From contig PKTL01000005.1 in NCBI GenBank assembly GCA_002867475.1, forward strand, positions 1 through 52,720: a stretch of DNA of 52,720 nt, written 5' to 3'. The notes beneath the pieces were generated by a model. The model was given only the letters and a program-made list of their open reading frames with translations. It was not told the DNA's origin and searched no databases. Both the position numbers and the translations under genes were made by a program. Each line of letters starts with the position of its first letter. Position 1 is the first letter of the stretch. Positions 385-51,739 of the stretch are shown here, piece by piece. Source of the DNA: Candidatus Woesearchaeota archaeon (GTDB taxonomy: Archaea; Nanobdellota; Nanobdellia; Woesearchaeales; BM511).

Positions 385-400
385 TCAAAGACTTAAAAAT

Positions 401-448
401 GATTAAAAGCTCATCTTTGAGTGATAAAGAGCTCACTCTTTATTAATC
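401..448 (+). promoter_or_regulatory. Folded leader of tbp
   Basis: GATTAA at 401-406 pairs with TTAATC at 443-448. Inside it GAGTG (419-423) can pair with CACTC (434-438), or CTCA (410-413) with TGAG (418-421), as mutually exclusive alternatives. A strong G-rich ribosome binding site (GTGGGGGT, 456-463) follows at once. The position suggests control of tbp translation; this is inference only. Confidence 0.4.
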
Positions 449-468
449 AAACCTTGTGGGGGTAAAAA

Positions 469-1017: not shown

Positions 1018-1042
1018 TTGCTTTTCCTTTTATTTTAAAACT

Positions 1043-1063
1043 AAACTAAGAATTCCTTAGTTT
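1043..1063 (+). terminator. Hairpin between tbp and mcm
   Basis: AAACTAAG (1043-1050) and CTTAGTTT (1056-1063) form a perfect 8-bp stem around a 5-nt loop, 26 bp after the tbp stop. A short T-run overlaps the 3' arm. The location fits a terminator of tbp transcription, though archaeal termination depends mainly on U-tracts. Confidence 0.4.
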
Positions 1064-1100
1064 TCAATATTTAATACTTTAATAAATAAGACTAGATAAA

Positions 1101-3790: not shown

Positions 3791-3795
3791 ATTGT

Positions 3796-15707: not shown

Positions 15708-15758
15708 ATGAAAAATATAATTTTTCAAGTTTTAAAAAATTTAGAGGAATTTTTATGA
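15708..15758 (+). CDS. 16-residue leader peptide upstream of ttuA
   Basis: ATG at 15708 follows a good ribosome binding site (GTGGAGG) and encodes MKNIIFQVLKNLEEFL. Its TGA overlaps the ttuA ATG (ATGA). A near-copy encoding MKNLVFQTLKNSEDFYEM precedes another CxxC protein gene at 27200. The DNA also contains TGAAAAA-N5-TTTTTCA (15709-15727). It may be a coupling peptide or a mobile leader; function is unknown. Confidence 0.5.
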   Translation: MKNIIFQVLKNLEEFL

Positions 15759-16642
15759 AATGTAATTTATGCGAAAAAAAAGCAGTAATATTGAACCCTT
15801 CTTATTGTAAAGAACATTTTATTGATGATTTTGAAAAAAAAGTGGAAGAAACAATAAAACAATTTAATCTTTTCAATAAAAATGAAAAGATTCTTGTTGC
15901 TACAAGCGGAGGAAAAGATAGTCTCACCGTTTTGCATATATTAAAAAAATTAGGATATAATGTAAAAGGGCTTCTTATTGATGAAGGAATAAAAAATTAT
16001 AGGGAATATACTATTGATGATATGAATGAATTCTCAAAAAAATATGATATTGATTTTGTGATAAAAAGTTTTGAAGAAGAATATTCAAGCACATTAGATG
16101 ATATAACAAAAAAAACAACCTTAAATCCTTGCCATATCTGTGGGATTTTTAGAAGACAATTATTAAATAAATATTCCAAAGAATATGATGTGATAGCAAC
16201 AGGACACAATCTTGATGATGAAGCACAAAGCATATTGATGAATTTATTGAAATCACAAACAAATCTTCTATCAAGGCTTGGTCCAATAACAGGGTTAAAA
16301 AAAGATGATAAATTCACAAGAAGAGTAAAACCATTATATTTACTTTCTGAAAAAAATATAAGATTATATACCTTTCTTTTAGGATTAAAAAACACCTTTA
16401 CTGAATGTCCTTATTCATCCTCCTCATTTAGAAACGAAATTTCAATAATGTTAAATGAACTAGAAAATGAGAATCAAGGAACAAAAAGCAATATTGTAAA
16501 TCATTTCTTAAAAAATCAAGATAAAATAAAAAAAATAGGAGAAAAAGAAGGAAGTGCAAATTTGTGTTATATATGTAATGAACCTTCAAGCGGTAAAATA
16601 TGTAATGCTTGCAACATATTAAAAGAACTTAAATTAATATAA
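15755..16642 (+). CDS. TtuA/Ncs6-type tRNA 2-thiouridine synthetase
   Basis: A 295-residue tRNA thiolase. An N-terminal zinc site (C3, C6, C18, H21), the PP-loop SGGKDS (51-56), Fe-S ligands C126 and C129 in CHICG and C218 in ECPYS, and a C-terminal zinc site (CYIC...CNAC) are all in the TtuA arrangement. It adenylates tRNA uridine and replaces oxygen with sulfur, using a [4Fe-4S] cluster and SAMP thiocarboxylate. Context (iscS, iscU, THUMP, SAMP) supplies sulfur and cluster. Whether it modifies U34 or U54 cannot be told from the sequence. Confidence 0.92.
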   Translation: MKCNLCEKKAVILNPSYCKEHFIDDFEKKVEETIKQFNLFNKNEKILVATSGGKDSLTVLHILKKLGYNVKGLLIDEGIKNYREYTIDDMNEFSKKYDIDFVIKSFEEEYSSTLDDITKKTTLNPCHICGIFRRQLLNKYSKEYDVIATGHNLDDEAQSILMNLLKSQTNLLSRLGPITGLKKDDKFTRRVKPLYLLSEKNIRLYTFLLGLKNTFTECPYSSSSFRNEISIMLNELENENQGTKSNIVNHFLKNQDKIKKIGEKEGSANLCYICNEPSSGKICNACNILKELKLI

Positions 16643-18621: not shown

Positions 18622-18667
18622 TCAAATCTTTTTTAAATAAACTTCTTTTTCTTTTTTATTGATAATT

Positions 18668-36893: not shown

Positions 36894-37019
36894 ATGGATA
36901 AGAAAGGGCAGATAGGTGACGCATTAAAAGTGGGTATAATAATAATTTTGATATTGGCTTTTTTCATCTTGCTTATAGCTGCTTTCATAAAAAAGATAGA
37001 TCTAGGTGTTCCAGGATGA
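36894..37019 (+). CDS. 41-residue prepilin-like protein
   Basis: ATG 36894 gives MDKKGQIGDALKVGIIIILI followed by more hydrophobic residues and a short basic/acidic tail. KKG before a hydrophobic helix is the class III signal. Its TGA overlaps the next ATG (ATGA), so it is translated with the following gene. It would be little more than a pilin-like helix once processed. Confidence 0.65.
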   Translation: MDKKGQIGDALKVGIIIILILAFFILLIAAFIKKIDLGVPG

Positions 37020-37978
37020 GATTGCATGGAAAGAAAGGAGTGACATGGACAGCATTAGTTGCTGTTGTTTTAGTAGTGATCGCAGCTGCAGTAATACTTC
37101 CCATGGGTTTTAGGTTATATAGTCAAACTCAAAAAGCAGAAGATAAAGCTTGTGCATTTAGTCTTTTGATGAGTTCAAGTGCAAAACTTCTTGGGCGAGA
37201 ATTGATAAGTCCAGAATGTCAGCATAGAACATATGTACTTGGAGAAGATAATTTTTCAATCGATGCAAAGTTCAATAAAAATTATGATGATAGTGTTGAT
37301 GATGCAAGCGATTATGAACCAAATTCCTATTATGTAACTCATTTTAAAGATTCTTCTATTGATGAAACAACACTTAAATTAGAGTGGTCGCTTGATGAGT
37401 TTATGGCTCAAAGATTGAAAGATTGTTGGGTTACAGTTGGAGAAGGTAGTTATGATATTTTTGATGAATGGATAAGTCTTCTTGATTGTGGAAATGATGG
37501 AGTGTATAGAGAATGTGACACAAATAGTGATGCTGGGTTTCTTACTCTTGCAAGAACTGTGTGGGATTCAGTAAAAAATAGGGATAATGTAATATCATAT
37601 TGTCTTTTATGTTCTGCAATACATTTTGAAGACGATTTAAAGCAAAAAGTGCCTTCCACTATAAAGTCCTTAGATGAATGGCTTTGGTTTAATCCTGTCC
37701 CAAACACAAATATTGGGTATAATGTATTTTTGATTAAAAACACGAATGCTCCATCTATAAGCAAAGTATATGATAATTATACTATTCAAGAAAGTCAAGC
37801 AATAATATATAAAAAAATAAAGATTGATTCAGCATTAGTTGATTATTCTATAGATAAATATGATATAGTAAAATCTCTTTTTAATTTAAATAATCCTGAA
37901 TCTGTTGAATATGTCCATTACGTTGAAGTTGTAGATTATCAAGATCTAGAAAAAGAATGCAGTTTTTTAATAGGATAA
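37016..37978 (+). CDS. Prepilin-like surface protein, 320 residues
   Basis: MRLHGKKG then VTWTALVAVVLVVIAAAVIL forms a class III-type start. The mature part is about 285 residues with several cysteines (CAFSLL, SPECQH, CWVTVG, LLDCGN, YCLLCS), suggesting disulfides outside the cell. No known enzymatic motif was found. It overlaps the 41-residue gene before it and is followed after 2 bp by another prepilin-like gene. Resembles minor pilins in design, not in recognisable sequence. Confidence 0.65.
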   Translation: MRLHGKKGVTWTALVAVVLVVIAAAVILPMGFRLYSQTQKAEDKACAFSLLMSSSAKLLGRELISPECQHRTYVLGEDNFSIDAKFNKNYDDSVDDASDYEPNSYYVTHFKDSSIDETTLKLEWSLDEFMAQRLKDCWVTVGEGSYDIFDEWISLLDCGNDGVYRECDTNSDAGFLTLARTVWDSVKNRDNVISYCLLCSAIHFEDDLKQKVPSTIKSLDEWLWFNPVPNTNIGYNVFLIKNTNAPSISKVYDNYTIQESQAIIYKKIKIDSALVDYSIDKYDIVKSLFNLNNPESVEYVHYVEVVDYQDLEKECSFLIG

Positions 37979-37980
37979 AA

Positions 37981-38157
37981 ATGATAAAAACAACATATTT
38001 TATGCTAAAAAATCACAGAGGTGAGATGACTTGGAGTCAAGTAGTTATGGCAGTTCTTGCAGCAATAGTTATTGTAATCTTTTTCATTATCGCATTTAAA
38101 TCAAAAACAGGTATGGGAAGTGTAATTGATGAAATGGGTACGAGGTTTTTCAATTGA
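37981..38157 (+). CDS. 58-residue prepilin-like protein
   Basis: ATG 37981 immediately follows the previous stop. The protein has NHRGEMTWSQVVMAVLAAIV, a basic-Gly start and hydrophobic helix, then a short hydrophilic tail. The E at position 2 after Gly is reminiscent of the +5/early acidic residue of type IV pilins. Its TGA overlaps the TTG start of the next gene. Confidence 0.6.
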   Translation: MIKTTYFMLKNHRGEMTWSQVVMAVLAAIVIVIFFIIAFKSKTGMGSVIDEMGTRFFN

Positions 38158-38969
38158 AATGTAAAAAAGGGATGATTTTTGGTCCTGTAGTGTATGCAAT
38201 AATTGCTATAATAGTTATAGGTGTTTCTCTTCCAATAGCAAATATCATAATAACAAATTCAAAACAAGTAGATACTGAAGAATTTCTTGAACTTTTAAGA
38301 GGAGAAAACATTTCTGGCTTTGTTCCAACACCTTGGTACGAAGCAGCCGAAGAAGACTATAAGACTGCTGTGGCTTCAGTAAACACATTAAGTACAGCAA
38401 TAAATATAATTGATTATGCAACTGAATTTGATAAAATTAATAACGCAGTAAAAAATTCTGACCCAGAAGTTACTTTAACGGGGAAAGCGACTGGAAACAC
38501 TCAAGGTGTTTGTTGTATGTTGAAAGTTGAAAGTCCAAATGATAATTTTAATTTATATTATGTAAAAGAAGGAAATTGTGGTGAAAAAGGGGCAGAAGTA
38601 TCAGGTTCTTTATGCAGGTGTCCAACAGGTCAATTAAATCTTAAGGAGGGTCCTTGTATCTCTTTCAAAAAGGAAAGTGTCAAGATAGAAAATTTTGAGA
38701 TACCTCATGATATTAGTTCTTCGGGATTTTCTAGTTATTATAATTATGCAACTAACAATAATGATCCAAAATATATTGTATATTTTGAAAGCTTTCCAGA
38801 GGGGGAAGAAAAAGCTTGGCAACCAATAAATATGAAATTTTTCCTTGCTAGTGCAGGAATACAAGTGGCTCTTTCTCTAGGCGGTGATCTTTGGGGCGTT
38901 GGAAAAAAAGCATTAAAGAAAACAGCTCCTGAAGTTGCTGAAGCAGCAGTTGAAAGCATGGTTAAATAA
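38154..38969 (+). CDS. Prepilin-like protein, N-terminal half of a possibly split gene
   Basis: A TTG start (TTGA overlap) gives MKCKKGMIFGPVVYAIIAII, a class III-type N-terminus. The 271 residues include cysteine-rich TQGVCCML, EGNCGEKG and LCRCPTGQ. The C-terminal helix APEVAEAAVESMVK stops at TAA 38967, and the next gene is in the same frame, continuing AKEDIIEEVSEEILDAAETK after this single stop. The two may be one gene of about 1150 codons interrupted by a nonsense codon. Confidence 0.65.
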   Translation: MKCKKGMIFGPVVYAIIAIIVIGVSLPIANIIITNSKQVDTEEFLELLRGENISGFVPTPWYEAAEEDYKTAVASVNTLSTAINIIDYATEFDKINNAVKNSDPEVTLTGKATGNTQGVCCMLKVESPNDNFNLYYVKEGNCGEKGAEVSGSLCRCPTGQLNLKEGPCISFKKESVKIENFEIPHDISSSGFSSYYNYATNNNDPKYIVYFESFPEGEEKAWQPINMKFFLASAGIQVALSLGGDLWGVGKKALKKTAPEVAEAAVESMVK

Positions 38970-38993
38970 GCAAAAGAGGATATTATAGAAGAA

Positions 38994-41600
38994 GTGAGTG
39001 AAGAAATTCTTGATGCTGCCGAAACTAAGTTAACTAATGAATTAATCGAATCTTCAAATGAGATAGCGTTGCTTGGTGCTAGAACTATTTTAATTAAAAA
39101 ATTAGGAAAAATTACAGGAAATAAAGTGTTTAAATTTTTAGATACTGCTTCTTCATATTCTATGTCAATTAAAGGAACGGGTATAAAATTAGAATCTTTA
39201 ACTTTAGATGATTTAGCTATAAAACTTGATTTAGATGGAAATGATCTAAATATTTTTAAATCTAGATTTAGCGAATTTGCAGATAGTAATGGAAAAATTC
39301 ATTTTGATATTAGTACTCTTTCTCAAGATGGTAAAAGAAATTTTTTAGACGAATTTGAAGATTATATTGGAGATCGGATTAAAGAAGGTCCTTCTTTTTT
39401 TAATAGATTAAAAGGAAATACAAAAGAACTTGATACTTTTTCAAAAGCATTATTGAATGCACCTGAAAATTTTGAAAAAAGTTTAGAACTTTTTGATAGT
39501 AAAGCTCTAGATGCATCAACATTTGATAAAGCATTTACAAAAGGTTGGAATGATGCTGAATCTCTTTTAGGCAATGGAAAAACAATAAATCTTCAAGAAG
39601 TTTTTACAGATGAGACAACTTTAAAGAAATTTATAAATATATTAAAAACAAACAGGGAAAAAATAAATAATAGATTAAAGGATACATCTAAAATAAAAAA
39701 TCTTGCAAAAAATTTAGAAGAAGGATTTTGGTATTTTCTTGGTGCACCAGAAAAAGATGCATCTAGCTATGTTGAATATTTATTTAAAGGAGGTGCGGGT
39801 TGTGCAATTAGGGGTGGTGGAGCTGTAGTAACTGGTGCTACTGGAGAAGTTGTTGGCGCATTTTCTGAAACTGCAGGCGATGTTTTAGATTATGCAGCTA
39901 TGGGTTTAGCAATGAATAGTGCAAAAAATTGTTATGCTTTAGCAAGAACAACCATATTCCCTATCGTAGCATTACTCTACATGTTTGAAGATAATGAAGT
40001 GGTCAAAAATTCAAAGTTTGATTATGTCTCTGATAATGACCTTCATTTAGCGATTAACAATAAGCTATTTGCAGCTGGGCAAGGTGAAAGTATTGCTCTT
40101 AATAATATAGAAGATTATAATATTTATATGACTGGGAAAGGAATTGGAGAAGGAATTGGAGATACTAAAACTAAATCTTTACATTTTGTAAGTCCTTGTA
40201 AAGTCGATATGGAAATCAGTAAAAATTATTGCGATGTGACTTTAGAAAGTACAAAATTATATGCTGCAAAAAAAGAAGGTGCCAAAGTTTCAGTTATTCC
40301 TTTAAGATTAAGATCTTCTGATCTACCTTTTTCTATAGATAAAATAAAAACTTATTATGTTTGGGATTCATTATCTCTTGAGAATAAACAGGATTTAATA
40401 GATGATGGGATGACTAATCAGGAAGGTATTTTAAATAATGTAATGGGTTTTTTATTTAATGAAGAATCTGATAAAAAAGACGTATCTTTTATTCTTGCTA
40501 ATGAAATAGCTTATGATGAAGATGCTTTCATGCATTTTACAACTCAAGTCATAGGTAAATATGGTTATAGTTGTGAAGATTTTATTGATATGTATGAAGA
40601 GGAATATATTGATCAATTTATATTAAATAGTATAAAATCTAAACCCTTATTAGGTTTTAGTAAAGCTAATTTTCCTGAAGCAATTCCTATTGAAACTTCT
40701 AATAATGATAAATATTATGAAAAAAGTGATGGTTGGTTAGAAACTGAAGACCATGATTATATAGAAGTTGATTATTATAGCTTTACAAATGATGCAGTTA
40801 TTTTAATAAATTCAAATAAAGAAAAAATTGAAAATTATAAGAGCGCTTGCTCCAATGAAGAAAAAGCATTTTATGATTTATTGTATTTAGATATTGTTCC
40901 TGTTAATACAGATTTTTCTCCAACTTTTGATGTCACATTTTATGCTGTTGAGAAAATATTGAATGAAATATTTGGTAGTGACCTATATACAAGAACTACT
41001 CTTCCAGAGTATAAAAAAGAAGAAACATTTGATTTAATCAATCTTCAAGATGTAGAAACAAGTTTTAATTTATTTGATTATTATCTTAGAGAACAATATG
41101 ATACTATAAATGTAATAGAGTTTAGTACATATGCTGCTTATAAGGATCAGTTGCAAAAAGCTTATGGTCAAGTTATTAAAAAAGGTGCACCAACACCTAG
41201 TAATAAAATAACTATACCTTCAATAAAAGCAAAATGTGTTGAAGTTAATATTTTAGGGTTTGCTAAAGATCAACCAGCAAATTATTGTTATACAACTTAT
41301 GATTGGACCGATGAAGCATTTCAATGGGGATTAGAAGGGGGAATTTTTGCTGCAAGTTTACTTCTTGCTCCAGAAACAGGAGCGACTTCGTTAGTAATGA
41401 TGTTAAAAGCAGCAGATCTTGCAGCAGTTGGATATGCTATCTATAAAGATTATAATGATAAATATCCTCATAATGATATTATTGATACAGATGATGGAAT
41501 AAATGATTATTCTAAAAATGATGAATCATCTAGTCCAACAACTTCTGTAGCTTCAAATAATGTAGAATCTCCTAATGATGAAAATGTCGGTGGAGCATAA
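38994..41600 (+). CDS. Large surface protein of unknown function, 868 residues
   Basis: A GTG at 38994 is the first usable start, but no ribosome binding site lies at the right distance and there is no N-terminal signal. The frame is continuous with the preceding gene apart from one TAA. An N-terminal helical part (about 1-260) is followed by a glycine/alanine-rich hydrophobic segment (about 265-325, GGGAVVTGATGEVVGAF), a long mixed domain with paired cysteines, a second hydrophobic stretch (about 795-835) and a Ser/Asn/Asp-rich tail. No family recognised. Confidence 0.6.
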   Translation: MSEEILDAAETKLTNELIESSNEIALLGARTILIKKLGKITGNKVFKFLDTASSYSMSIKGTGIKLESLTLDDLAIKLDLDGNDLNIFKSRFSEFADSNGKIHFDISTLSQDGKRNFLDEFEDYIGDRIKEGPSFFNRLKGNTKELDTFSKALLNAPENFEKSLELFDSKALDASTFDKAFTKGWNDAESLLGNGKTINLQEVFTDETTLKKFINILKTNREKINNRLKDTSKIKNLAKNLEEGFWYFLGAPEKDASSYVEYLFKGGAGCAIRGGGAVVTGATGEVVGAFSETAGDVLDYAAMGLAMNSAKNCYALARTTIFPIVALLYMFEDNEVVKNSKFDYVSDNDLHLAINNKLFAAGQGESIALNNIEDYNIYMTGKGIGEGIGDTKTKSLHFVSPCKVDMEISKNYCDVTLESTKLYAAKKEGAKVSVIPLRLRSSDLPFSIDKIKTYYVWDSLSLENKQDLIDDGMTNQEGILNNVMGFLFNEESDKKDVSFILANEIAYDEDAFMHFTTQVIGKYGYSCEDFIDMYEEEYIDQFILNSIKSKPLLGFSKANFPEAIPIETSNNDKYYEKSDGWLETEDHDYIEVDYYSFTNDAVILINSNKEKIENYKSACSNEEKAFYDLLYLDIVPVNTDFSPTFDVTFYAVEKILNEIFGSDLYTRTTLPEYKKEETFDLINLQDVETSFNLFDYYLREQYDTINVIEFSTYAAYKDQLQKAYGQVIKKGAPTPSNKITIPSIKAKCVEVNILGFAKDQPANYCYTTYDWTDEAFQWGLEGGIFAASLLLAPETGATSLVMMLKAADLAAVGYAIYKDYNDKYPHNDIIDTDDGINDYSKNDESSSPTTSVASNNVESPNDENVGGA

Positions 41601-41608
41601 TATTAATA

Positions 41609-42364
41609 TTAGGATAAACTAATAATTGTTGAGGTTGCATCATCTTTTAAAACTCCAACGTAGAAACCGCCGTAATGAATTGAGTAATCAGCTTCAAATC
41701 TATCTTGTGTATCTTTTATCTTCATCATATAGATGCCTTCTTTTGGCTGTTCTGAGAAATCAAAAAGAACCTCATTCTCATACTCTTTCCCATAATAAAC
41801 CATTGTGTTAGGGATGCTTTTTTCCCAATCTTCATCAATAAAGATGTAAGCATAGACTCCATCACTTTCAAGCCTTTCAAGAATAAAACCATCAATAACT
41901 CCATCGTTTGGATCCATCTCTTGATTTATACTCATCACTAACTTATCATTTTCGTAATAATTTCTTGGAAAATAGTTGCCTTTGTACCAACCTTCGCTGC
42001 TAAAAACTGTACCAAGAGTTTTTTCTTGCTGACTGCCAGTTCCATCAACATAGCTTTCTCCTTTTCCAGCTTCTTCAACATCAATATTAAAACCATTTTC
42101 AGTTTCGTCAATCCAGTTCTTAGGATTGTTGCTATAATGCTCTCCAGTGAAAAAGAAGAAATAATAGATGTTTCCAGCAATAACTAAAATAAGTATTATA
42201 GTTAATAAGGGTATCAAATGATTTTTCTGTTTAGGTTCAGGATTATTATTTTGGCTTAACATTTGATTTATTTGTGTTTGATTGAAACCTTTCTGTAAAT
42301 AATAATTTCTGATCTGTAATTCAGTATAGCCTTGCTTTCTAAAATTTTCAACCTCTTTATTCAT
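41609..42364 (-). CDS. Single-pass membrane protein with extracellular beta domain
   Basis: ATG 42364 (MNKEVENFRKQGYTELQIRN) lies 22 nt after a minus-strand TATA element (TATATAAATA, 42386-42395), so it fits a leaderless start; a GTG at 42385 abuts that TATA and is rejected. Residues 1-40 are two short helices of a UBA-like repeat, then a membrane helix (about 52-72) and about 175 residues with SEGWYKGNYFP and SIHYGGFYVGVL, probably beta-rich. It is the only minus-strand gene inside the prepilin-like locus. Function unknown. Confidence 0.6.
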   Translation of the reverse strand: MNKEVENFRKQGYTELQIRNYYLQKGFNQTQINQMLSQNNNPEPKQKNHLIPLLTIILILVIAGNIYYFFFFTGEHYSNNPKNWIDETENGFNIDVEEAGKGESYVDGTGSQQEKTLGTVFSSEGWYKGNYFPRNYYENDKLVMSINQEMDPNDGVIDGFILERLESDGVYAYIFIDEDWEKSIPNTMVYYGKEYENEVLFDFSEQPKEGIYMMKIKDTQDRFEADYSIHYGGFYVGVLKDDATSTIISLS

Positions 42365-42482
42365 AAAGTTCTTTCTTGAATCCACTATTTATATAATTTC
42401 CTCATAGTTATTTTAAAAAAGATTTTTAAATAATAAAGTAAAAGATTGAATTATATCACAATTTTTTGTGAGGGGGGAAATT

Positions 42483-43061
42483 ATGGCAAAAACATTCAAG
42501 GATGGGTTTATGTATCCATTCAATAATATGAAAAGGTTGTTCAATTTTTGGTGGGTGTTGGTACCTGTCGTTGGTATATTTGCAGTAATAGGTTATTTTA
42601 GGGAAATAGTTGAAGGCTTGCTAAAGAAAAAGGACAAGGAACTTCCTGAATTTAAAGGATTTTTAAGACTTACAAAAAAAGGATTCATGTTTTTTTTGAT
42701 AATGCTTTTACCTGCAATTTTAGCAATGATGCTAAGTGGGGTATTGAATAGTTTATTTAGTTCAACATCACTTGGGAAAATAGTATATTTTGTGCTCATG
42801 CTCTTTGTAGATTTCTATCTGGCAATGCTTTACATAAACTATGTTAAAGAAGATAAGTTTGAAGCAGTGTTTGATGTGAAGAAAGTTTGGGAAAAGATAA
42901 GCAAGGATTGGAACAAAACACTTCACGCGTTTTTGATGCAAGCACTTTTGATGTGCGTATTTTTGCTGATGAGTGTGTTTGTAATAACCTTAATCATCAC
43001 AGTTCCGGCAATGAGCTTTACAGGATACTATTATCTGGTTGAACTGTATAATAAGGCTTAA
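42483..43061 (+). CDS. DUF4013-like membrane protein
   Basis: The 192-residue protein has FWWVLVPVVGIFAVIGYFREI, then ELPEFKGFLRLTKKGF and about five hydrophobic helices, the pattern of the DUF4013 family common in archaea. ATG 42483 has a purine-rich ribosome binding site (AGGGGGG, 42471-42477). An upstream GTG at 42468 is less likely. Role unknown; it may be a membrane component of the surrounding locus. Confidence 0.65.
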   Translation: MAKTFKDGFMYPFNNMKRLFNFWWVLVPVVGIFAVIGYFREIVEGLLKKKDKELPEFKGFLRLTKKGFMFFLIMLLPAILAMMLSGVLNSLFSSTSLGKIVYFVLMLFVDFYLAMLYINYVKEDKFEAVFDVKKVWEKISKDWNKTLHAFLMQALLMCVFLLMSVFVITLIITVPAMSFTGYYYLVELYNKA

Positions 43062-43111
43062 GCAGAGGTTAATAGAAACATTTATTAACCATTTTTCTTA
43101 TTTTTTATTCT

Positions 43112-43366
43112 ATGAATATAAAGCCTCTAAATTCTAAAGGAGATATAAGCATGAGCACCATTGTTTATGCAGCAATCGCCATAACTGTGCTTCTAGTAAT
43201 ACTTTTGATATTTACAAGCAATATAAAAAAACCAGCAAATGAATTTACTGATAAATCTAATGTTGATGAGGATAAAGTAGAAGATATTTTAGGAGAAGAA
43301 TATATGGAAGAAAGCGAATTTAATAAGGTAATAATCCCCCTTGGTTTGAATCTAGAATTTTTATAA
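43112..43366 (+). CDS. Prepilin-like protein without cysteine domain
   Basis: The 84 residues contain NSKGDISMSTIVYAAIAITV, nearly identical to the next protein in this segment, but with an acidic tail (VDEDKVEDILGEEYMEE) in place of cysteines. The DNA coding for KGDISM (AAAGGAGATATAAGCATG) reads as a ribosome binding site plus ATG, so translation may also begin at that internal Met. Tandem paralogue of 43368. Confidence 0.6.
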   Translation: MNIKPLNSKGDISMSTIVYAAIAITVLLVILLIFTSNIKKPANEFTDKSNVDEDKVEDILGEEYMEESEFNKVIIPLGLNLEFL

Positions 43367-43367
43367 A

Positions 43368-43655
43368 ATGAGATATAAAAAAGGAGATATAAGCATGACC
43401 ACCATCGTTTATGCAGTGATAGCTATAACTGTTCTTTTGGTTCTTTTGATAATATTTACAAAAAATGTCGGCACTCCTGCAAAAGAAATAAGAAATGTAA
43501 GTAGCGATTTTAGTCTTACAAAATGTGAATCAAGTCTTTCAGATAGGAAATGTGAATATAATGCATGTAAAGAAGGGGGGAAACATGTTAAGCTGTATGA
43601 TTCAAGTTGTAAAGAGCAAGAAAGTTCAAGCTATATTTGTTGTGATTATTCTTAG
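43368..43655 (+). CDS. Prepilin-like protein with six-cysteine (defensin-like) domain
   Basis: The 95 residues start MRYKKGDISMTTIVYAVIAI. The domain after the helix has spacing C-x8-C-x4-C-x13-C-x9-C-C, the same order as the 36599 protein with slightly longer loops. It begins 1 nt after the stop of its cysteine-free paralogue. Predicted to sit in the membrane or a pilus with the cysteine domain outside. Function unknown. Confidence 0.68.
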   Translation: MRYKKGDISMTTIVYAVIAITVLLVLLIIFTKNVGTPAKEIRNVSSDFSLTKCESSLSDRKCEYNACKEGGKHVKLYDSSCKEQESSSYICCDYS

Positions 43656-43710
43656 TTTTATATCCTTTAAATCAATAATTTTTTAAACATCATTTCTAAA
43701 TGTTATATTA

Positions 43711-44172
43711 ATGATAGAAAATAGGAAAGGTCAAAGCTCAACAATGGCTTTAGAAGAACTAGTAAAACTTCTTTTAGGAATTGCTGTTTTTATTTTTGTA
43801 GTAAGTTTTCTTATATCTTTATATTTGGTAGTGACTGCAAAAGAAAAATCAACAATCGAAAATGATTTCTATAGGGTGAAGCAAGATATAGAAGCAGTAA
43901 CAATTGAAACAGGAACAATAACAACACCTATATTTAGTGATAATATAGAATTAAGATTGTTAAAACTTGGAAGCAAAGCCGAAGGAGGATGTAAAAAGGA
44001 ATCTATCTGTTTATGTTATAAGAAAGCAACTGATAAAGAAACCTCCTATAAATGTGAAAGCTTGAACAAGGATGCAAAAAAGTATGATGTTGCAAGCAAT
44101 CCAAGAGATGTTGCTCCTTCAAAAACACTTTCTATAGCCATTCATAATACTGCAGATATCTTCATTGGATAA
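43711..44172 (+). CDS. Prepilin-like protein, 153 residues
   Basis: MIENRKG then QSSTMALEELVKLLLGIAVF forms a class III-type start with Glu residues soon after the Gly, as in type IV pilins. The mature domain (IKEDF...) has a CKKESICLCYKK cysteine cluster and ends IAIHNTADIFIG. It precedes a tightly packed operon of five genes. No enzyme motif. Confidence 0.62.
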   Translation: MIENRKGQSSTMALEELVKLLLGIAVFIFVVSFLISLYLVVTAKEKSTIENDFYRVKQDIEAVTIETGTITTPIFSDNIELRLLKLGSKAEGGCKKESICLCYKKATDKETSYKCESLNKDAKKYDVASNPRDVAPSKTLSIAIHNTADIFIG

Positions 44173-44220
44173 TCTATTTATTCCAAAAATTATTTAAAAA
44201 CAATTACTAACTAATAATAT

Positions 44221-45225
44221 ATGAGGATTCTTAAGAGTAAAAAAGGGGGTGGAGAAGAACTAATATATCTAACCCTTTTCACACTTCTTTTTTTGATCTT
44301 ATTAACCTTTTTCTTATTCCAATACGCAGATTCCTGGAAAGATAGCACTTTTCTTGAAAGAACATATCTAGCAAAAGATATAGGATTATTATCGGAAGCG
44401 TTACAATTGGTTCCAGGAGATGTGAAAGTAACCTATCCAAAAGAATTGATAGATATGCAGATAGAGATGAATAAAGAAGAGATAAGTATAGAAAACATAA
44501 AATCTGGAGGTTTTGTAGACCTAGCTAAATTTACTCCTTTATTCACTAAAAAAACAACAATAAACAATATAATCTATCCAGAAACTCCTGAAGATATAAG
44601 GTATGTGGTAGAACTTTCAAAGATAGGAACAAACATAGTTCCTTCAACAGTAAAAGTTGCAGGAAGCACTTCTGCTTCTACCTCCACAACGGCAACAACT
44701 TCTTCAACATCCACCTCTTCAATAGATTCAGTTATAAGTTCCTTAAAAGAGCCAAATGAAAACTGGGAAGATGAAAAGATAATAACAGATTATTTTGAGA
44801 CTTCAATAAGGATACCTGATTCATTAAGTGATACGGGAACAACAACCTTAAAGTCTATATGCACTCAAATATTGTCTTATAACACACATTTTTTATCAAG
44901 AAAAGACTGTGGTTATTCAAACAAGATTGACACAACATCTAAAGCATTGTTAGAAATATATTTAGAATTTGATAGCAGTTCTTCAAAAATCAAGATATAT
45001 ACATCCAGTAAAACACAAAATCTAGCAGAAATAATAAAGATATTAGCAGAAGATAAAAACTTAGAAGGAATCGAAAAATCAATACAGGAATCAACAGGAA
45101 AATTTGATTCAAAAATGACAATCAGTATAGGATATGATTCAAAATCAAAAGAAGAAATAGATAATATAAGAAAAACGCTTGGACAAATAATCCCAAAAGC
45201 ACTTACAGAATACTATGAACCTTAA
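44221..45225 (+). CDS. Prepilin-like surface protein with Ser/Thr linker
   Basis: The 334-residue protein starts RILKSKKGGGEELIYLTLFT followed by a hydrophobic helix, matching class III signals. A folded part (about 35-145) is joined by a Ser/Thr-rich linker (about 148-170, SASTSTTATTSSTSTSS, likely glycosylated) to a C-terminal alpha-beta domain (about 175-334). Two cysteines (CTQIL, KDCGYS) may pair. No catalytic motif could be defended. The end overlaps the next start by 11 nt. Confidence 0.65.
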   Translation: MRILKSKKGGGEELIYLTLFTLLFLILLTFFLFQYADSWKDSTFLERTYLAKDIGLLSEALQLVPGDVKVTYPKELIDMQIEMNKEEISIENIKSGGFVDLAKFTPLFTKKTTINNIIYPETPEDIRYVVELSKIGTNIVPSTVKVAGSTSASTSTTATTSSTSTSSIDSVISSLKEPNENWEDEKIITDYFETSIRIPDSLSDTGTTTLKSICTQILSYNTHFLSRKDCGYSNKIDTTSKALLEIYLEFDSSSSKIKIYTSSKTQNLAEIIKILAEDKNLEGIEKSIQESTGKFDSKMTISIGYDSKSKEEIDNIRKTLGQIIPKALTEYYEP

Positions 45226-45694
45226 AATAAGAAACAAAAAAGCGATGGGGTGGACCCTGATATGGATAATAAACTTTTTTGTAGTCATAGTATCAATACT
45301 TGTCATAACAGGAATAGTGACAGGAACCATAAACAAACAGATAGAGACAAAAAATCTTCGAGCACAGATACTTGCAAAAAGACTCATATATAATCCAGAA
45401 TGCCTAGCATATTATGACAGTAGCAATCAAAGAACTGAGATTGGAACAATAGACAAATCAAAATTAAATGATTTAACAATCAGTAACTGTTATGGTGGAG
45501 ATGACACCATAGGTATAAAGATAACAATAGGAACAAAAGAATATTATCTAAACAAAAACATATATAGAGATATAGCACCAATAGCGTTTTCAGGTCAATA
45601 TCAAAGATACAATGAAAAATTCTTCATAAAAACATATTCCGGATCAACAATAGACTTTGAATATGTGAATATAGATTTGGTGATGGACAAATGA
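45215..45694 (+). CDS. Prepilin-like protein, 159 residues
   Basis: NLKIRNKKAMGWTLIWIINF: basic stretch, Ala-Met where others have Gly, then a hydrophobic helix with VSILVITGIVTG. The mature domain has Cys pairs (NPECLAYY, ISNCYGG) and is beta-rich. It overlaps both neighbours (11 nt and ATGA). Probably a minor-pilin-like subunit; Ala at the cleavage position is tolerated by some archaeal peptidases. Confidence 0.6.
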   Translation: MNLKIRNKKAMGWTLIWIINFFVVIVSILVITGIVTGTINKQIETKNLRAQILAKRLIYNPECLAYYDSSNQRTEIGTIDKSKLNDLTISNCYGGDDTIGIKITIGTKEYYLNKNIYRDIAPIAFSGQYQRYNEKFFIKTYSGSTIDFEYVNIDLVMDK

Positions 45695-46167
45695 ATAAGA
45701 AAGGTCAACTATCATCAATTTTTAATACTCCTTTTTCAATAATAGGGATAGTAGGGTTATTGATAATATTTATGATAATCATTTCCATGATACCTGATCC
45801 AGAAGCAAGCATACAAGAAGTAGAGATATCAACGTATGGAGATATATTTGTGATGAATTATTTAAAATATGATAAAGTAAATTTTAATGGTAACATGGTA
45901 TCTATATATGATCTGTTGCTTTTGTACATCGATTCAGATTATACAGATACAATTGTTGAAGATTTATTAGAATCAGAAACAATAAACATAATGGATGGAT
46001 TATTCGAACAAACTGATTCTTGTTTCACATTAAGATTAAAAGAGGGAAATAGTGTAAGCACACTCATAAGAAGCAATTTTGGGTGTAATGAAAATAAGAT
46101 TGAAACAGAGTTTAGGATACCTTATGGGAAATATGATTCAAAATCCTTGATAATAAGTGGAAAATGA
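45691..46167 (+). CDS. Prepilin-like protein, 158 residues
   Basis: MNKKGQLSSIFNTPFSIIGI begins a class III-type N-terminus with a hydrophobic helix to about 35. The mature part has one short cysteine pair (DSCFTLRL, FGCNENK). Four-base ATGA overlaps with both adjacent genes show translational coupling. No recognised fold. Confidence 0.6.
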   Translation: MNKKGQLSSIFNTPFSIIGIVGLLIIFMIIISMIPDPEASIQEVEISTYGDIFVMNYLKYDKVNFNGNMVSIYDLLLLYIDSDYTDTIVEDLLESETINIMDGLFEQTDSCFTLRLKEGNSVSTLIRSNFGCNENKIETEFRIPYGKYDSKSLIISGK

Positions 46168-47249
46168 AAATAAGAAATATAAAAGAATTACAGAGAAACA
46201 AGAAAGGAGTAATTGATTTTCTTCCTTTCTATATGATGATCTTATTCATATTCTTGATATATTTAACAATCGTGATAAAAGGCCAGACAAATTCAACAAT
46301 GTATCCTTTAGGAGATGTTGCACAAGAATTTATGATTTCAATGAATGATGCAGAAAAAAAGAACCTTTACTTATCTTATGCGGCAACCCAAAGCGTAAGA
46401 GATAATGTATTTGATATATTATCAACTGGGAATAATCCTGATGAAGAATGTGGTTATTATATGGGGTATCCTTTAGTCAATAATGATACAAAGAATTGTC
46501 TTGATTATGATAATAGTAAACAGGAGCTTGAAACAACTTTGGAAGAAGAGATAGAAAGGAAAATGATCGTATTAGATCTTGATACAGATCTCAATATTGA
46601 TATTGGAGATATGTCAACCACAAAAATAAAAGGCGAAGGAGATCTAGTTGAGATACCCATATATATTCAAGGAAGTGGGAATGTATATGATATAACCACA
46701 ACCCAAACAACTGTAAAGGAAAATAAGGAAACAGATGTTGTAAAAAGAGCCTTTCTTGAATATGAATATTGGGAGTGGGGGAATCTTAAAGAAAGTGAAG
46801 CTAGAGCATACAGTCTTTTGAAAACTTATTGGGACAATATTGGATGGAATGAAGCTTCATGGAGTCCTACAAAAACCGCATGGAGTGCAGCATTCATATC
46901 TTATATAATAGAAGATTTTAGTAGTAGTGCTCATAATGGATACATAAACAAAGTATACAAAGGACAAATTTCTGGTTGGACATTTTATGAGAATAAACCT
47001 TTAGAGATTGGAGATGTCATATGTAATACTCGAAATGGGGACATTTTTAATCCTGATGCAACCTATCAATCTCATTGTGATATTGTTGTAGAAATAAATG
47101 AAAATGAAGTAAAAACCTTAGGAGGCAATGTCAATAATAATGTGGATATGAAATCTGTTGCTATAAATAATAATAATGAGATTGCAAACCCTATATCAAC
47201 ATCTAAATCAAAACACATAGGGGTATTATCAAAAGATAGTTGGGTGTAA
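46164..47249 (+). CDS. Prepilin-like protein with DUF2272 (NlpC/P60-type) domain
   Basis: Residues 1-40 contain RNKKGVIDFLPFYMMILFIF, a class III-type helix. After a spacer of about 150 residues comes a domain (about 190-355) with the DUF2272 signature: TAWSAAFISYII (S240 at the nucleophile position), SSAHNGYI (H257), EIGDVICNTR, SHCDIVVE (H304, D306) and TLGGNV. DUF2272 belongs to the NlpC/P60-CHAP superfamily, many members of which cut peptidoglycan. The start overlaps the previous gene by ATGA and the lytic-transglycosylase gene follows after 1 nt. Confidence 0.8.
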   Translation: MKIRNIKELQRNKKGVIDFLPFYMMILFIFLIYLTIVIKGQTNSTMYPLGDVAQEFMISMNDAEKKNLYLSYAATQSVRDNVFDILSTGNNPDEECGYYMGYPLVNNDTKNCLDYDNSKQELETTLEEEIERKMIVLDLDTDLNIDIGDMSTTKIKGEGDLVEIPIYIQGSGNVYDITTTQTTVKENKETDVVKRAFLEYEYWEWGNLKESEARAYSLLKTYWDNIGWNEASWSPTKTAWSAAFISYIIEDFSSSAHNGYINKVYKGQISGWTFYENKPLEIGDVICNTRNGDIFNPDATYQSHCDIVVEINENEVKTLGGNVNNNVDMKSVAINNNNEIANPISTSKSKHIGVLSKDSWV

Positions 47250-47250
47250 A

Positions 47251-49701
47251 ATGGAAAGAAGAGAAATAGCAATAATTGGAATATTATTTTCATTAACACT
47301 TCTTTCGCTAATTATGCCTTTGAACAGTCCTACAGGTTATATGGGAAAATTACCAGCAGGAGCAGAATTCCCAACTTGTAGCGTTGATGCCTTTTCTGGA
47401 GATATAGCTTCATGCCATGCAAAATATGGAAACATAGTTCTATCCGAATTATCTAAACTAGAAACAGAAATAGGGACAGAAATTGATCCTAATTATATCT
47501 ATAGTATAATCTTACAGGAATCAAGCTGTAGGGATTCTGAAAGATTAAAAAAAGATGGTGTTTCAACTTGGAAAGGAGGGATAATGCAAGTTGATTATGG
47601 GTGCAATGATAGACCGGATGATAATCCTTGCACTATTGAAGAACAATTTGAGAAAGGTTTTGATGTATTTAAAAGCGAATATAAAAAAGTTTTATCTCAA
47701 AATTCTGATGTGGCCATTTCAGGTCAAGAGATAATGGCATTAATACTTTTTAGCTATAATAGGGGAAGTGGCACAGCAAGCAAAGCAATAGAATATGTGA
47801 ACCGTGGTGATGATGTAGTTATTGCAATGACTAAAGCATGCAAGGAAATTTATTATAAGAAGTGTGCAGGAACAGACCCTTATTGTGCTCTTGATAGCAA
47901 CAATCATGATAAATGTACTTGGTCAGGATATGGGGTAAGATATCCAGAACGGGTTTTTTCAATATTGGAAAATTCTTGTGAAGCATCAAATGGAAAGTTT
48001 GAAAATTATGATGGAAACCTTTTAGATTATGCACTTGCTGATTCACAATCAGGATTTTTTACAAGAAAAGATCTTTTTGCAAGAGCTGCTGGTTCATATT
48101 CATTTAGACTGACCTTTTCAACTTTTGATGAATTTGATTTATCTATTTTCAAGAAGATTCAAGATGATATGAGAAATCTTACTGAAGAATGCAGCATGGC
48201 TTTGGATAAAAAAAATTGCACTGAAGAATTCATAAATAATAAGAATAAGAACACACAAGGGTTGAAGCTTGGACCTCAAGATCCTCAAGAAGATGCAATA
48301 TTTTCACTTGTAGAGCAATTAAATCTTTGCAGAAATTCATCAACAATGGGTCAAGAATGCTATTGTGAAATAGAATTGAAAGAACCAATAGAATTATATG
48401 AAGATATCAAGATATCTTATGATTCAAATTTTAATTTAATAACTTTTGAAAAAGATGTTGGGGATAAAACAATAAGATATGAAATGCCTTATAGTTTTCC
48501 AATATATAATTTGATAAAAATTCAACCTTTACAAAAATATTCTCCTTTAATAGAAAAAAGGATAGGAAACAAAACTTATCTAAAAAAAATGGGTGCAAGT
48601 TTCTATATACTGGATTCTTTTGACCGAGCAAATCCTAATCCTCCAAAAAAATGCGAGGTAGATCAAAAATTCTATGTATTGACAAAAAAAACAGGCAAGG
48701 AATTCATATATTATGATAAAGACGAGCAAAAACATGTGATAGGTAAACCCGATATTGAATTTGCAATATATCTAAAAGATATAACTCCTCCAGAACCAAC
48801 AGAATTCAAGGTTGAACAGATTGATCAGACAAATAACACAATCTATATCTCTTGGGAGAAACCAAGCGGAAATACAGATATAGATAAATATTATATTTTC
48901 TATTCACCCACAGAATTTAATGATAATCCTTATGATGTGCTTAATCCTTCTGACTCTGATTTTGAAACAAATATAACTTTTATGGATTTATCAAACGCAT
49001 CTTTAATTGATCAATCTTATGCAGATTATGAAGAAATTACTATACAACCTCTTTGTGAAGATCTTGATTCAGTTAATTCATATTGTAATTTTGAAATATC
49101 TGTTTATGATGAATCTATTGATGATTACATAAATGAAACGCTTGATAAGAACAAGATATATGGATTTTATGGATTTGACAAATATTTAGCAGTTCTAGAA
49201 CTTCCAAAAAGAGAATATCACATAACTGTTCTTGCTATGGATAAATCAGGAAATATTGAAAGTTTTGTAAACGCTAAAAAAGCAGTAATAAAAACAGAAG
49301 ATCTGCAAAGGATCAACCCAATTTCATTATACTTATCAGGAAAAGAGCCCTTAATTAAAAGAATTGATTCAGATCATATCGAAGTTGATTTCACAAATGT
49401 GGAACTCAAAAATTTTGATGAAACAATAGCAACGGATCTCAATAGTTATTGGTTTTATATAGAAAATCAGAATAATCTTAAAAATTCTAAAACTGTGAAT
49501 CTTAATAGTTTAAGGCCAGCATATTTTGTTCCTTCACAAAAAATAAAAGATGTTGTGCCTGTAAGTGATAATAGCTGTTTTTACATCCTTCCTATGGATA
49601 TGGAATATTTTTCTGTTCAAGGAAAATACTCACAGATTTTCACCCCGTTAAGCATATATAACGAAATAAGTGTAGACCTAAAACAGTTCACATGTATCTA
49701 G
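47251..49701 (+). CDS. Membrane-anchored lytic-transglycosylase-like protein with Fn3-like domain
   Basis: 816 residues: a signal anchor (6-24), then an SLT-type lysozyme-like domain (about 45-235) with catalytic Glu90 in LQESSCR, KGGIMQVD (108-115), FSYNRGSG (167-174) and GYGVRYPERV (227-236). These are the four canonical Slt motifs. Several cysteine pairs are added. After a region of unknown fold, an Fn3-like module lies near 512-680 (PPEPTEFKVEQ, IYISWEKPSG, LAMDKSGN). It would cleave glycan strands of the MurNAc-GlcNAc type, absent from archaeal walls. Last gene of the coupled operon. Confidence 0.8.
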   Translation: MERREIAIIGILFSLTLLSLIMPLNSPTGYMGKLPAGAEFPTCSVDAFSGDIASCHAKYGNIVLSELSKLETEIGTEIDPNYIYSIILQESSCRDSERLKKDGVSTWKGGIMQVDYGCNDRPDDNPCTIEEQFEKGFDVFKSEYKKVLSQNSDVAISGQEIMALILFSYNRGSGTASKAIEYVNRGDDVVIAMTKACKEIYYKKCAGTDPYCALDSNNHDKCTWSGYGVRYPERVFSILENSCEASNGKFENYDGNLLDYALADSQSGFFTRKDLFARAAGSYSFRLTFSTFDEFDLSIFKKIQDDMRNLTEECSMALDKKNCTEEFINNKNKNTQGLKLGPQDPQEDAIFSLVEQLNLCRNSSTMGQECYCEIELKEPIELYEDIKISYDSNFNLITFEKDVGDKTIRYEMPYSFPIYNLIKIQPLQKYSPLIEKRIGNKTYLKKMGASFYILDSFDRANPNPPKKCEVDQKFYVLTKKTGKEFIYYDKDEQKHVIGKPDIEFAIYLKDITPPEPTEFKVEQIDQTNNTIYISWEKPSGNTDIDKYYIFYSPTEFNDNPYDVLNPSDSDFETNITFMDLSNASLIDQSYADYEEITIQPLCEDLDSVNSYCNFEISVYDESIDDYINETLDKNKIYGFYGFDKYLAVLELPKREYHITVLAMDKSGNIESFVNAKKAVIKTEDLQRINPISLYLSGKEPLIKRIDSDHIEVDFTNVELKNFDETIATDLNSYWFYIENQNNLKNSKTVNLNSLRPAYFVPSQKIKDVVPVSDNSCFYILPMDMEYFSVQGKYSQIFTPLSIYNEISVDLKQFTCI

Positions 49702-49735: not shown

Positions 49736-49767
49736 ATCCTTCAACAACCAGAAACTAGGTGGGGAAA

Positions 49768-51027
49768 TTGATAAAGATACCAGTTGAAACGATCAAATCA
49801 CGAATAAAGGAAAAGACAGGAATGTCTGATGAAGAGATAGATTCTAAGATAAAAGCTAAGTTAGATGCTTTATCAGGACTTATAAGCGAAGAAGGTGCAG
49901 CACATATTATCGCAAACGAGAACAATGTCAAGCTTTTCGATACAGAAAATGAGAATCTAAAGATAAAAGATATCTATGCAGGTATGCGTAATATTGAAGT
50001 AACAGGAAAAGTGACAAATGTTTTTGAAGTTAGAGAATTCAATAGTAATGGGAGAGAAGGAAAGGTTGGAAGTTTTATAATGGGTGATGAGACAGGAATG
50101 ACTCGAGTGACTCTTTGGGGAAGCAAAGCAGACGAACTTAAAAACATAAAACAAGAGGATGTTGTTAAAGTTCAATCGGGATTTTCAAAAGAGAACAATG
50201 GAAGAGTAGAAATCCATATGAATGACAATTCTAAATTAGTAATAAATCCAGAAGGTGCAAAAGTTGAAGAAGTAAAAAGAGGAGCATCAAAATCAAGAAA
50301 ATCTATTCCTGAACTAAACGTTGGTGATGAGAATGTTGAGATTCTTGCGACAATTGTGCAATCTTATGATCCTAATTTTTGGGACGTTTGTCCTAATTGT
50401 AATAAGAAAGCAAGACAGGAAAATGGAGAATATATCTGTAATGAACACGGAAATATAACTCCTGATCAAAGCTATGTGATGAACTGTTTTTTAGACGATG
50501 GTAAAGACAATATCCGTTCTGTATTTTTTAAGAATCAAGTACAAAATTTAACAGGAAAAACCCACGAGGAAATTCTTGCAATGAAAGAAACAGGATTTGA
50601 AGACCTAAAAAATGACCTTTTAGGAAAAATAATAACTGTTAGCGGGAGAGTGACTCAAAATGAGATGTTTGTAAGAAAAGAATTCATTGCACAATTTGTG
50701 GATGCAAATCCCGATCCAAAAGAAGAGATAAAAAAAGTTCAAGAAGAACAAAAAGTTGAAACAAAACCTGTTGTTTCAAACGAAACTTCGAACACGGATA
50801 ATATAACAAACGAAAGCGAAACTTCTTTAAAAGAGGAGATTAAAACAGAAACATCTGTTGAATCAGTTGAATCAGTTGAATCAGAAGAAGAAAAAGAAGA
50901 AGTAATTATAGAATCTTCAGATGAAGAAACTGAAGAACCACAGCCTAAATCACAAGAATCAGAAGATGAACTGATGAGTCTTGATGATCTTGAATCAATA
51001 GATGATGATGAAGACATCTATACTTAA
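49768..51027 (+). CDS. Replication protein A, archaeal multi-OB type
   Basis: Starting at TTG 49768 (MIKIPVETIKSRIKEKTGMS, the usual archaeal RPA beginning) with ribosome binding site GGTGGGG; a GTG at 49759 is the alternative. Two OB-folds are visible: residues about 65-160 (GRVEIHMNDNSKL) and about 185-310, the latter with a zinc finger (CPNCNKK...CNEHG). A long acidic tail with three tandem 9-bp VES repeats (50857-50883) ends DDDEDIYT. It coats single-stranded DNA in replication and repair. The tail resembles protein-docking tails. Confidence 0.9.
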   Translation: MIKIPVETIKSRIKEKTGMSDEEIDSKIKAKLDALSGLISEEGAAHIIANENNVKLFDTENENLKIKDIYAGMRNIEVTGKVTNVFEVREFNSNGREGKVGSFIMGDETGMTRVTLWGSKADELKNIKQEDVVKVQSGFSKENNGRVEIHMNDNSKLVINPEGAKVEEVKRGASKSRKSIPELNVGDENVEILATIVQSYDPNFWDVCPNCNKKARQENGEYICNEHGNITPDQSYVMNCFLDDGKDNIRSVFFKNQVQNLTGKTHEEILAMKETGFEDLKNDLLGKIITVSGRVTQNEMFVRKEFIAQFVDANPDPKEEIKKVQEEQKVETKPVVSNETSNTDNITNESETSLKEEIKTETSVESVESVESEEEKEEVIIESSDEETEEPQPKSQESEDELMSLDDLESIDDDEDIYT

Positions 51028-51739
51028 AAAGGTGCCAAAACCTTTTTTTCTATCTTTTATTTTCTTATATTTTTTATTGATAATAAACCCTCCTCAAGAA
51101 GTTCTTTTAAGTTTTGACACAGAAAGTGATGTTGGGGATGAAAAAGCAGTACAAAAAATAATAGATGTTCTTGATAGATATAATGCCACGGCAACTTTTT
51201 TTGTTATGGGAACATTTGTAGAACAAAACCCTGACCTGATAAGAATTTTATATTCAAAAGGTCACGAAATAGCATGCCATACTAACACTCATAAAAACTT
51301 ATTTTTAATAAGTGAGGTAGAGCAAGAAGAAGAAATAAGATCTTGTAAGGAATCCATTGAAAAATTAGGAATAAGCATTGAAGGGTTTAGAGCGCCATGG
51401 AGGCTTTTAACTTTAGATTCAGCAAAAATATTAAAAGAAAATAATTTTTTATATGATGCTTCTCTTTTTGATATTCAACCAAATATTTTCTCTATTAAAG
51501 AAGTATATACTTCAACAAGTTTTGGAATCATTCCAGCTGATGATTATATACAATTATTATTTTTAAAATTGAACAAAAAATTATATTTTCAAGGATTAAA
51601 AAATATATATGATAAGAAAGTTAGTATGTCTTTTCATCCTCATATAATAATGGTTTATGAAACCGGATTTGAAGAATTGATAAAATATTATAATCAAAAA
51701 CACGTCAAGTTTATAACACATAAAAAATCACTAGAATAA
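51002..51739 (+). CDS. Polysaccharide deacetylase (NodB family), membrane-anchored
   Basis: The 245-residue protein has an N-terminal hydrophobic segment (15-30) and the NodB motifs LLSFDTESD (D39), ACHTNTH (H93, H97), FRAPWR and SFHPH. The metal-binding Asp-His-His triad is complete. It removes acetyl groups from N-acetylhexosamine polymers at the cell surface. The start overlaps the end of the RPA gene by 26 nt; the next gene starts directly after the stop. Confidence 0.88.
   Translation: MMMKTSILKKVPKPFFLSFIFLYFLLIINPPQEVLLSFDTESDVGDEKAVQKIIDVLDRYNATATFFVMGTFVEQNPDLIRILYSKGHEIACHTNTHKNLFLISEVEQEEEIRSCKESIEKLGISIEGFRAPWRLLTLDSAKILKENNFLYDASLFDIQPNIFSIKEVYTSTSFGIIPADDYIQLLFLKLNKKLYFQGLKNIYDKKVSMSFHPHIIMVYETGFEELIKYYNQKHVKFITHKKSLE

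Follow-up and report, generated by a model that had tools for sequence, protein, structure and literature searches.

A conserved prepilin-like stalk carrying exchangeable, predicted peptidoglycan-active domains in Woesearchaeales

Why should an archaeon whose group is expected to have an S-layer only encode enzymes predicted to cut peptidoglycan, and why at the end of a prepilin operon? The question is raised by a 52,720-nucleotide stretch of DNA, hereafter the window, from contig PKTL01000005.1 of a Candidatus Woesearchaeota archaeon (order Woesearchaeales, assembly GCA_002867475.1). Genes of the window are given by their positions in it and lie on the forward (+) strand unless stated otherwise. 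An operon extending over 37016-49701 ends in two translationally coupled open reading frames (ORFs), P0001 (46164-47249, 361 aa) and P0002 (47251-49701, 816 aa). The former joins a prepilin-like stalk to a DUF2272 domain, and the latter contains a domain resembling those of the SLT/GH23 lytic transglycosylases. An initial annotation, made from the sequence alone, had described them as two adjacent, coupled genes; both ORFs lie at the positions it gave, with P0002 beginning 2 nt past the end of P0001.

The part of P0001 that relatives share is its stalk (residues ~1-171, 46164-46676). In searches of 99 relatives, matches to P0001 cover the first 100-170 residues only, and DUF2272 is not matched. 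A profile from 23 aligned sequences (alignment A1) finds the stalk in 294 of the 353 genomes of the order and in 156 of the 180 good-quality ones, mostly as one copy each; it is a conserved, near-universal and usually single-copy gene of the order. A simple N-terminal test for the prepilin signature, in which a hydrophobic stretch comes after a basic-G/A motif, is positive in 91 of 104 stalks. In relatives, too, the stalk gene comes last in this prepilin operon, and an RPA-like gene often follows. The initial annotation had proposed a survey of homologs of the gene pair; within the order the stalk and its flanking operon are kept, but the DUF2272 partner domain is replaced by others. Outside the order, stalks are mostly short ORFs of about 150-310 aa.

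The replacements are diverse. Regular expressions proved too insensitive for classing the C-termini, and local hidden Markov models (HMMs) and Pfam were used instead. In the C-termini of 98 stalk genes, Pfam identifies M23 (22), SLT (20), M15 (6), Amidase_2, M74 and NlpC/P60 (4 each) and, more rarely, YkuD, 3D and CHAP (2 each), Amidase_3 (1) and DUF2272 (1). M74 is the family of the penicillin-insensitive murein endopeptidase. Some stalk proteins bear multiple loads: M23 with SLT, Amidase_3 with M74, and NlpC with YkuD and a deacetylase. When 80 genes were picked by the stalk alone, an enzyme domain was found in the same ORF for 39, and for 44 if the next gene is included; as the 80 were drawn from among the stronger matches to the stalk, the share across the order may be smaller, and two of the 39 (L118 and L123) rest on matches under Pfam's own cut-off. 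The immediate upstream neighbours of the stalk gene served as a control: none of 95 has a peptidoglycan-active domain, while 84 have the prepilin signature. The loads are mostly of unrelated folds, from about ten families, with bacterial peptidoglycan as their apparent common denominator. Judged by sequence, the stalk is a scaffold for unrelated peptidoglycan-active domains, which replace one another on it. The range of load families, together with the clean upstream control, strengthens the earlier proposal that a surface device linked to prepilins acts on a bacterial wall. We also observed by eye a common alpha/beta-hydrolase-like domain at the stalk C-termini of several families (L109, L119, L143 and L161); it has no Pfam match in L119, and the Pfam matches in L109 belong to a separate GDSL lipase region only.

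Exchange is evident even within the window's own family. Across its four genomes the loads are DUF2272 and a separate SLT (window), no load and a separate SLT (G002), fused M23 and SLT (G003), and another SLT, also fused (G001). Resolution of the stalk tree is poor, with 13 of 101 inner branches starred, and its minimum of 43 load changes is a figure inflated by tree error; several well-supported sister sets of stalks differ in load. A related locus, L035, bears on how the two window genes belong together. Its single 1215-aa ORF (238-3885) consists of a stalk, M23, a P0002-like SLT and a P0002-like C-terminus, and aligns with P0002 over residues 77-783 of the latter (BLAST, 2.3e-34). Because this ORF fuses their counterparts, P0001 and P0002 appear to be parts of one device.

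The DUF2272 domain of P0001 (residues 235-348, 46866-47207) is well supported. The profile check suggested by the initial annotation is significant, with a Pfam E-value of 1e-14 and 55.2 bits against a curated cut-off of 27, and the match spans profile positions 43-179 of 191. The description of a DUF2272 domain on a prepilin-like stalk thus holds, but its "NlpC/P60-type" label is weakened: the nucleophile position is occupied by Ser (S241, motif WSAAFIS), followed by H304 (SHCD). DUF2272 is among the papain-like, NlpC/P60-related families in which Ser replaces the catalytic Cys (PMC10318531). Activity is plausible from the sequence, though less certain than the NlpC/P60 name implies because of this Ser. 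A sequence comparison of the domain with the PDB gave no match. No relatives were found in viral contigs, leaving a phage source without support there. In Pfam, P0001 matches DUF2272 and P0002 matches fn3, and no wall-binding domain is recognised in either.

P0002 proved harder to assign by sequence. All four Slt motifs that had been read in the gene are located, namely E90, GGIMQVD (109), YNRGSG (169) and GVRYP (about 227, within GYGVRYP), in a domain covering residues 76-250 (47476-48000). The SLT/GH23 profile check gave a divided result: the single sequence is not significant against Pfam SLT (E = 0.14, 12.2 bits vs the 21.3 cut-off), which comes close to refuting the assignment, but a profile of 6 relatives matches goose-type lysozymes (GH23) in the PDB at 1.9e-5, and one of 10, more distant relatives matches them at 9e-4. 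A locally iterated SLT HMM scores P0002 at 2.6e-17. Across the aligned relatives, E90, GG..QVD, NRG and YG..YP vary little or not at all, and the first three are invariant in 10 sequences. An AlphaFold model of residues 41-275 reaches a pLDDT of 84.5, and its top Foldseek matches are MltC, MltE, goose lysozymes, endolysins and an SLT+NlpC protein; their E-values of 0.03-0.5 are singly weak, yet almost all belong to one superfamily, so the structural check also favors the assignment. From the alignments and the model we accept that P0002 is likely to have a GH23-like fold with an intact catalytic glutamate. As a lytic transglycosylase it would be predicted to act on MurNAc-GlcNAc strands. The region after the enzyme (residues ~278-440, 48082-48570) corresponds, by alignment and eye only, to the "PSF" module of relatives (A3/A4 consensus), and an fn3 domain follows at residues 515-581 (48793-48993; Pfam E = 3.2e-6).

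As the initial annotation held, P0002 is membrane-anchored ahead of the Slt domain. Its own conserved N-terminal anchor ends in PTGY, comparable to NPTGYA in L034 3024-4142 and to the similar TGYA in L037 11121-13430. A frameshift splitting one fused gene was considered, but the split is taken as real, as the anchor is common to the separate L034 homolog. P0002-type SLT domains also occur in contigs labelled Micrarchaeota, Diapherotrites, Woesearchaeota and Nanoarchaeota (L168, L172, L174 and L175), some of them in lipoproteins, and by sequence this is apparently a DPANN-wide subfamily. In genome G019, a 1123-aa membrane protein encoded in another context, with several lipoproteins (L038 6853-10224, identical to L173 6748-10119) combines a P0002-type SLT with Amidase_2 and is possibly part of a second peptidoglycan-active system. 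The window genome itself has a second, unrelated SLT-domain protein of 470 aa, without prepilin context (L188 484-1896, contig C51).

Which wall would these enzymes cut? Bacteria, a pseudomurein-like polymer and an unknown glycan had all been offered as targets. Peptide stems containing D-amino acids are the substrates of the M15/VanY, M74 and L,D-transpeptidase (YkuD) folds, and MurNAc-GlcNAc is that of GH23; pseudomurein has neither. Bacterial murein is the best target because the loads address just these features. Murein synthesis requires four Mur ligases; none was found in the window genome, and in almost every one of 99 genomes of the order there is at most one. As the window genome is without Mur ligases, bacterial murein is the most likely target, a conclusion we regard as well supported by the load families; the pseudomurein and unknown-glycan branch of the earlier proposal is less likely. 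The exception among the 99 genomes is G008, where a dcw-like murein-synthesis cluster (Mur ligases and neighbours) occupies one contig (L182, contig C2). This is most likely a contaminating contig and would otherwise be remarkable. Contamination of the window by a bacterial contig was ruled out by its archaeal MCM, Cdc6 and DNA polymerase D genes.

The genes of the operon bear the prepilin signature in 10 of 13 cases, as against 1 of the 36 other window genes, and the "five or more" prepilin-like genes said to precede the pair are exceeded, with six directly before 46164 (43112-46167) and a further three at 37016-38969. Bulky minor pilins sit at pilus tips. By analogy with them, the bulk of the stalk protein and its place as the last gene of the prepilin set suggest that it may be the tip subunit, and the operon's subunits would form the filament. 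The ingredients of an archaeal type IV pilus are present: prepilin N-termini in the subunits and, in the genome, an assembly ATPase, a platform protein and a prepilin peptidase. In L054 the prepilin operon is immediately preceded by a gene for a PilB-type ATPase (T2SSE, 5.6e-35) and two for T2SSF platform proteins. A matching motor of PilB/TadC type, with its genes in this T2SSE-T2SSF-T2SSF order, is encoded on contig C71 of the window genome (phmmer 1.8e-211, 8.2e-93 and 2.1e-95), and the prepilin peptidase of that genome is on contig C40. Prepilin-like subunits, T2SSE ATPase, T2SSF platform and prepilin peptidase are shared with the archaeal type IV pili and PilB3-TadC systems surveyed by Makarova et al. 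(2016, PMC4858521), who describe nanoarchaeal assembly ATPases without identifiable cognate pilins. The operon may supply such pilins.

Gene by gene, the operon starts with a prepilin-like gene bearing the signature (37016-37978; upstream homologs in L053, L044, L046, L037 and L055), a small one with a basic-G and hydrophobic N-terminus that overlaps its neighbours (37957-38157), and a third, with the signature, whose counterparts in relatives belong to much larger proteins (38154-38969). An 868-aa protein without a Pfam match follows (38994-41600). The next gene, for a conserved exported protein (41609-42385), is on the minus strand; its place inside the prepilin operon is kept in several relatives (L044, L045, L046, L051 and L053), usually on the opposite strand. 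After a DUF4013 membrane protein (42468-43061; PF13197, E = 2.7e-14) come two small prepilin-like subunits of a repeated family, one with the signature and with homologs in relatives (43112-43366) and one with homologs in many relatives, some having several copies (43368-43655). Another subunit with the signature and with homologs in relatives (43711-44172) precedes the conserved last-four set. This set begins with 44221-45225, homologs of which lie directly upstream in relatives, and continues with 45215-45694, the most widely conserved of the set (homologs in the loci of 19 relatives), and 45691-46167, which has a homolog in L034 and a conserved position (95 upstream neighbours aligned). The ORFs starting at 45215, 45691 and 46164 each begin within the preceding one.

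Beyond the operon lies a gene for an RPA-like single-stranded DNA-binding protein (49759-51027), the conserved downstream neighbour; of 104 stalk genes, 66 have such a gene among the three ORFs that come next on their strand, the others often reaching a contig or window edge. Directly 3' of it, 51002-51739 encodes a membrane-anchored CE4 polysaccharide deacetylase, kin of peptidoglycan deacetylases (phmmer against the PDB, peptidoglycan GlcNAc deacetylase, 2.5e-12); in L148 a deacetylase is fused to the stalk. From its sequence and place, it is only possible that the window's deacetylase belongs to the device. Elsewhere in the window, 18659-20449 encodes a Trm5/TYW2-type tRNA methyltransferase; its match is split in two, and a xylose-isomerase-like TIM barrel (PF01261, residues 275-480) seems to be inserted. 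The ThiI-like gene at 14665-15525 has ferredoxin-like and THUMP domains only, without the catalytic PP-loop domain, and adjoins IscS/IscU-like genes and a separate PP-loop protein (15755-16642).

We think it probable, with some reserve, that the operon encodes a type-IV-pilus-like device on the cell surface, with exchangeable murein-cutting tips that it presents to bacteria. Its products would be subunits of this woesearchaeal structure, processed by the prepilin peptidase and put together by the motor that the genome encodes elsewhere. P0001, the last prepilin-like subunit, and the coupled P0002 would form the enzymatic business end, comprising DUF2272 and a GH23-type lytic transglycosylase, and the bulky stalk protein at the tip would show these enzymes to a bacterial cell. 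Local cleavage of the wall could then allow the archaeon to attach to, feed from, enter or kill the bacterium, and the frequent enzyme swaps among relatives might represent adaptation to differing wall types. Tip position, delivery and purpose, whether predation, symbiosis or competition, are the parts that we infer. Several observations weigh against this reading. About half of the stalk genes are without a recognised enzyme, and stalks beyond the order are too short to hold one; wall cutting alone therefore cannot be the structure's core function. The motor of the window genome is on a contig other than the operon's, the operon includes large unassigned genes, the window SLT by itself falls under the Pfam cut-off, and the DUF2272 active site is a Ser variant. 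The tip position depends on the analogy to bulky minor pilins, and an AlphaFold prediction of full-length P0001 with four stalk homologs was too poor to help with it (pLDDT 42, discarded).

The strongest competitor needs neither filament nor target cell: the stalk would only tether exported murein hydrolases to the archaeon's own membrane or S-layer, where they digest free murein debris as food. The nearly even split between stalks with and without enzymes agrees with this, as does P0002's own membrane anchor, and scavenging and degradation of cellular compounds have been proposed for published Woesearchaeota genomes (PMC9723730). A plain anchor, however, would not need a conserved, usually single-copy, near-universal prepilin-like stalk of 170 residues, nor does digestion explain why the enzyme gene is locked in a many-prepilin operon across the order and, in L054, stands beside a pilus motor. 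We consider surface digestion unlikely, while giving it more weight than any other alternative. Far less probable is that the enzymes open the producer's own wall for passage of the appendage, in the manner of VirB1, FlgJ and EtgA. This is the usual role of secretion-linked wall hydrolases in bacteria, and EtgA is a weak PDB match of the SLT profile (0.12), but the shortage of Mur ligases described above and the expected S-layer would leave no such wall to open, the G008 exception resembling contamination.

The conserved RPA gene invites a different thought, that the device breaks bacteria and draws in DNA, with RPA binding the incoming single strands. RadA-like genes farther on in relatives, seen by eye, fit this, and the biosynthetic poverty of DPANN archaea would make nucleotides valuable. 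Yet no ComEC-type channel (PF03772) was found in 99 genomes of the order, in a search whose positive controls worked, and RPA and RadA, being housekeeping genes, may merely have a conserved position; we hold a DNA-uptake pilus to be quite improbable. A conjugation-like type IV secretion element or a virus-derived injection machine with a VirB1-like transglycosylase would account for a weak, sub-threshold TrbL/VirB6 match of the 38154 gene (E = 0.0064) and for the membrane segments, SLT and Amidase_2 combined in the woesearchaeal L038 protein. VirB4, relaxase and capsid or tail genes were not found among the operon genes, however; the stalk is usually single-copy across the order, with near-universal chromosomal synteny, and the window is by sequence a chromosomal region with MCM, Cdc6 and both archaeal DNA polymerase D subunits. 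Such a machine therefore seems very doubtful here.

Parts of the type-IV-pilus-like reading have precedents. GH23/SLT domains in large exported woesearchaeal and pacearchaeal proteins, proposed to touch or degrade bacterial walls, have been reported (Castelle et al. 2021, PMC8204110; Vigneron et al. 2022, PMC9723730; ODZ DPANN MAGs 2024, PMC10936187); the portions consulted treat the transglycosylase alone, without a prepilin stalk, operon or fusion, or M23, M15, M74, amidase and NlpC on one scaffold. Strock et al. (2025, PMC12352652) described secreted archaeal peptidoglycan hydrolases directed against bacteria, Nanoarchaeota being prominent and two haloarchaeal enzymes shown to kill. Their modular definition required a catalytic and a cell-wall-binding domain, about 5% of archaeal genomes being positive, whereas here the scaffold is a prepilin-like stalk and no wall-binding domain is recognised; the words pilin, SLT and DUF2272 are absent from their text. 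In the PilB3-TadC survey (PMC4858521) we found no mention of a terminal subunit with exchangeable peptidoglycan-active domains. VirB1, EtgA and FlgJ are likewise murein hydrolases encoded with an appendage or secretion machine, but they open the producer's own wall, which this archaeal producer is without. The P0001 domain shares with the DUF2272 family (PF10030; PMC10318531) the 1e-14 match and the Ser for Cys; that family is mostly proteobacterial, and here it is borne by an archaeal prepilin-like stalk. Woesearchaeal GH23 transglycosylases and their possible action on bacteria are thus already known; no description of the prepilin scaffold, the near-universal stalk or the exchange of enzyme families was found in the literature searched, preprints and many subscription journals being outside its scope.

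The broadest formulation, which we advance only tentatively, is that of an undescribed class of inter-domain contact machine, near-core to this whole order of tiny symbiotic archaea: a pilus with a universal adaptor as its terminal prepilin, to which murein-cutting warheads are attached interchangeably. We know of no identified host for most Woesearchaeota, and few, if any, have been cultivated. A near-universal, usually single-copy stalk that bears murein-specific enzymes in roughly half of the genomes sampled suggests that bacteria are the partners or prey, and it supplies a named protein for labelling, pull-downs and tests. The interchangeable loads could help to predict the targeted wall types and are a reservoir of new peptidoglycan-active enzymes. 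If the reading is true, many Woesearchaeota would be epibionts, predators or invaders of bacteria, and the wall type of the target could be predicted from the warhead.

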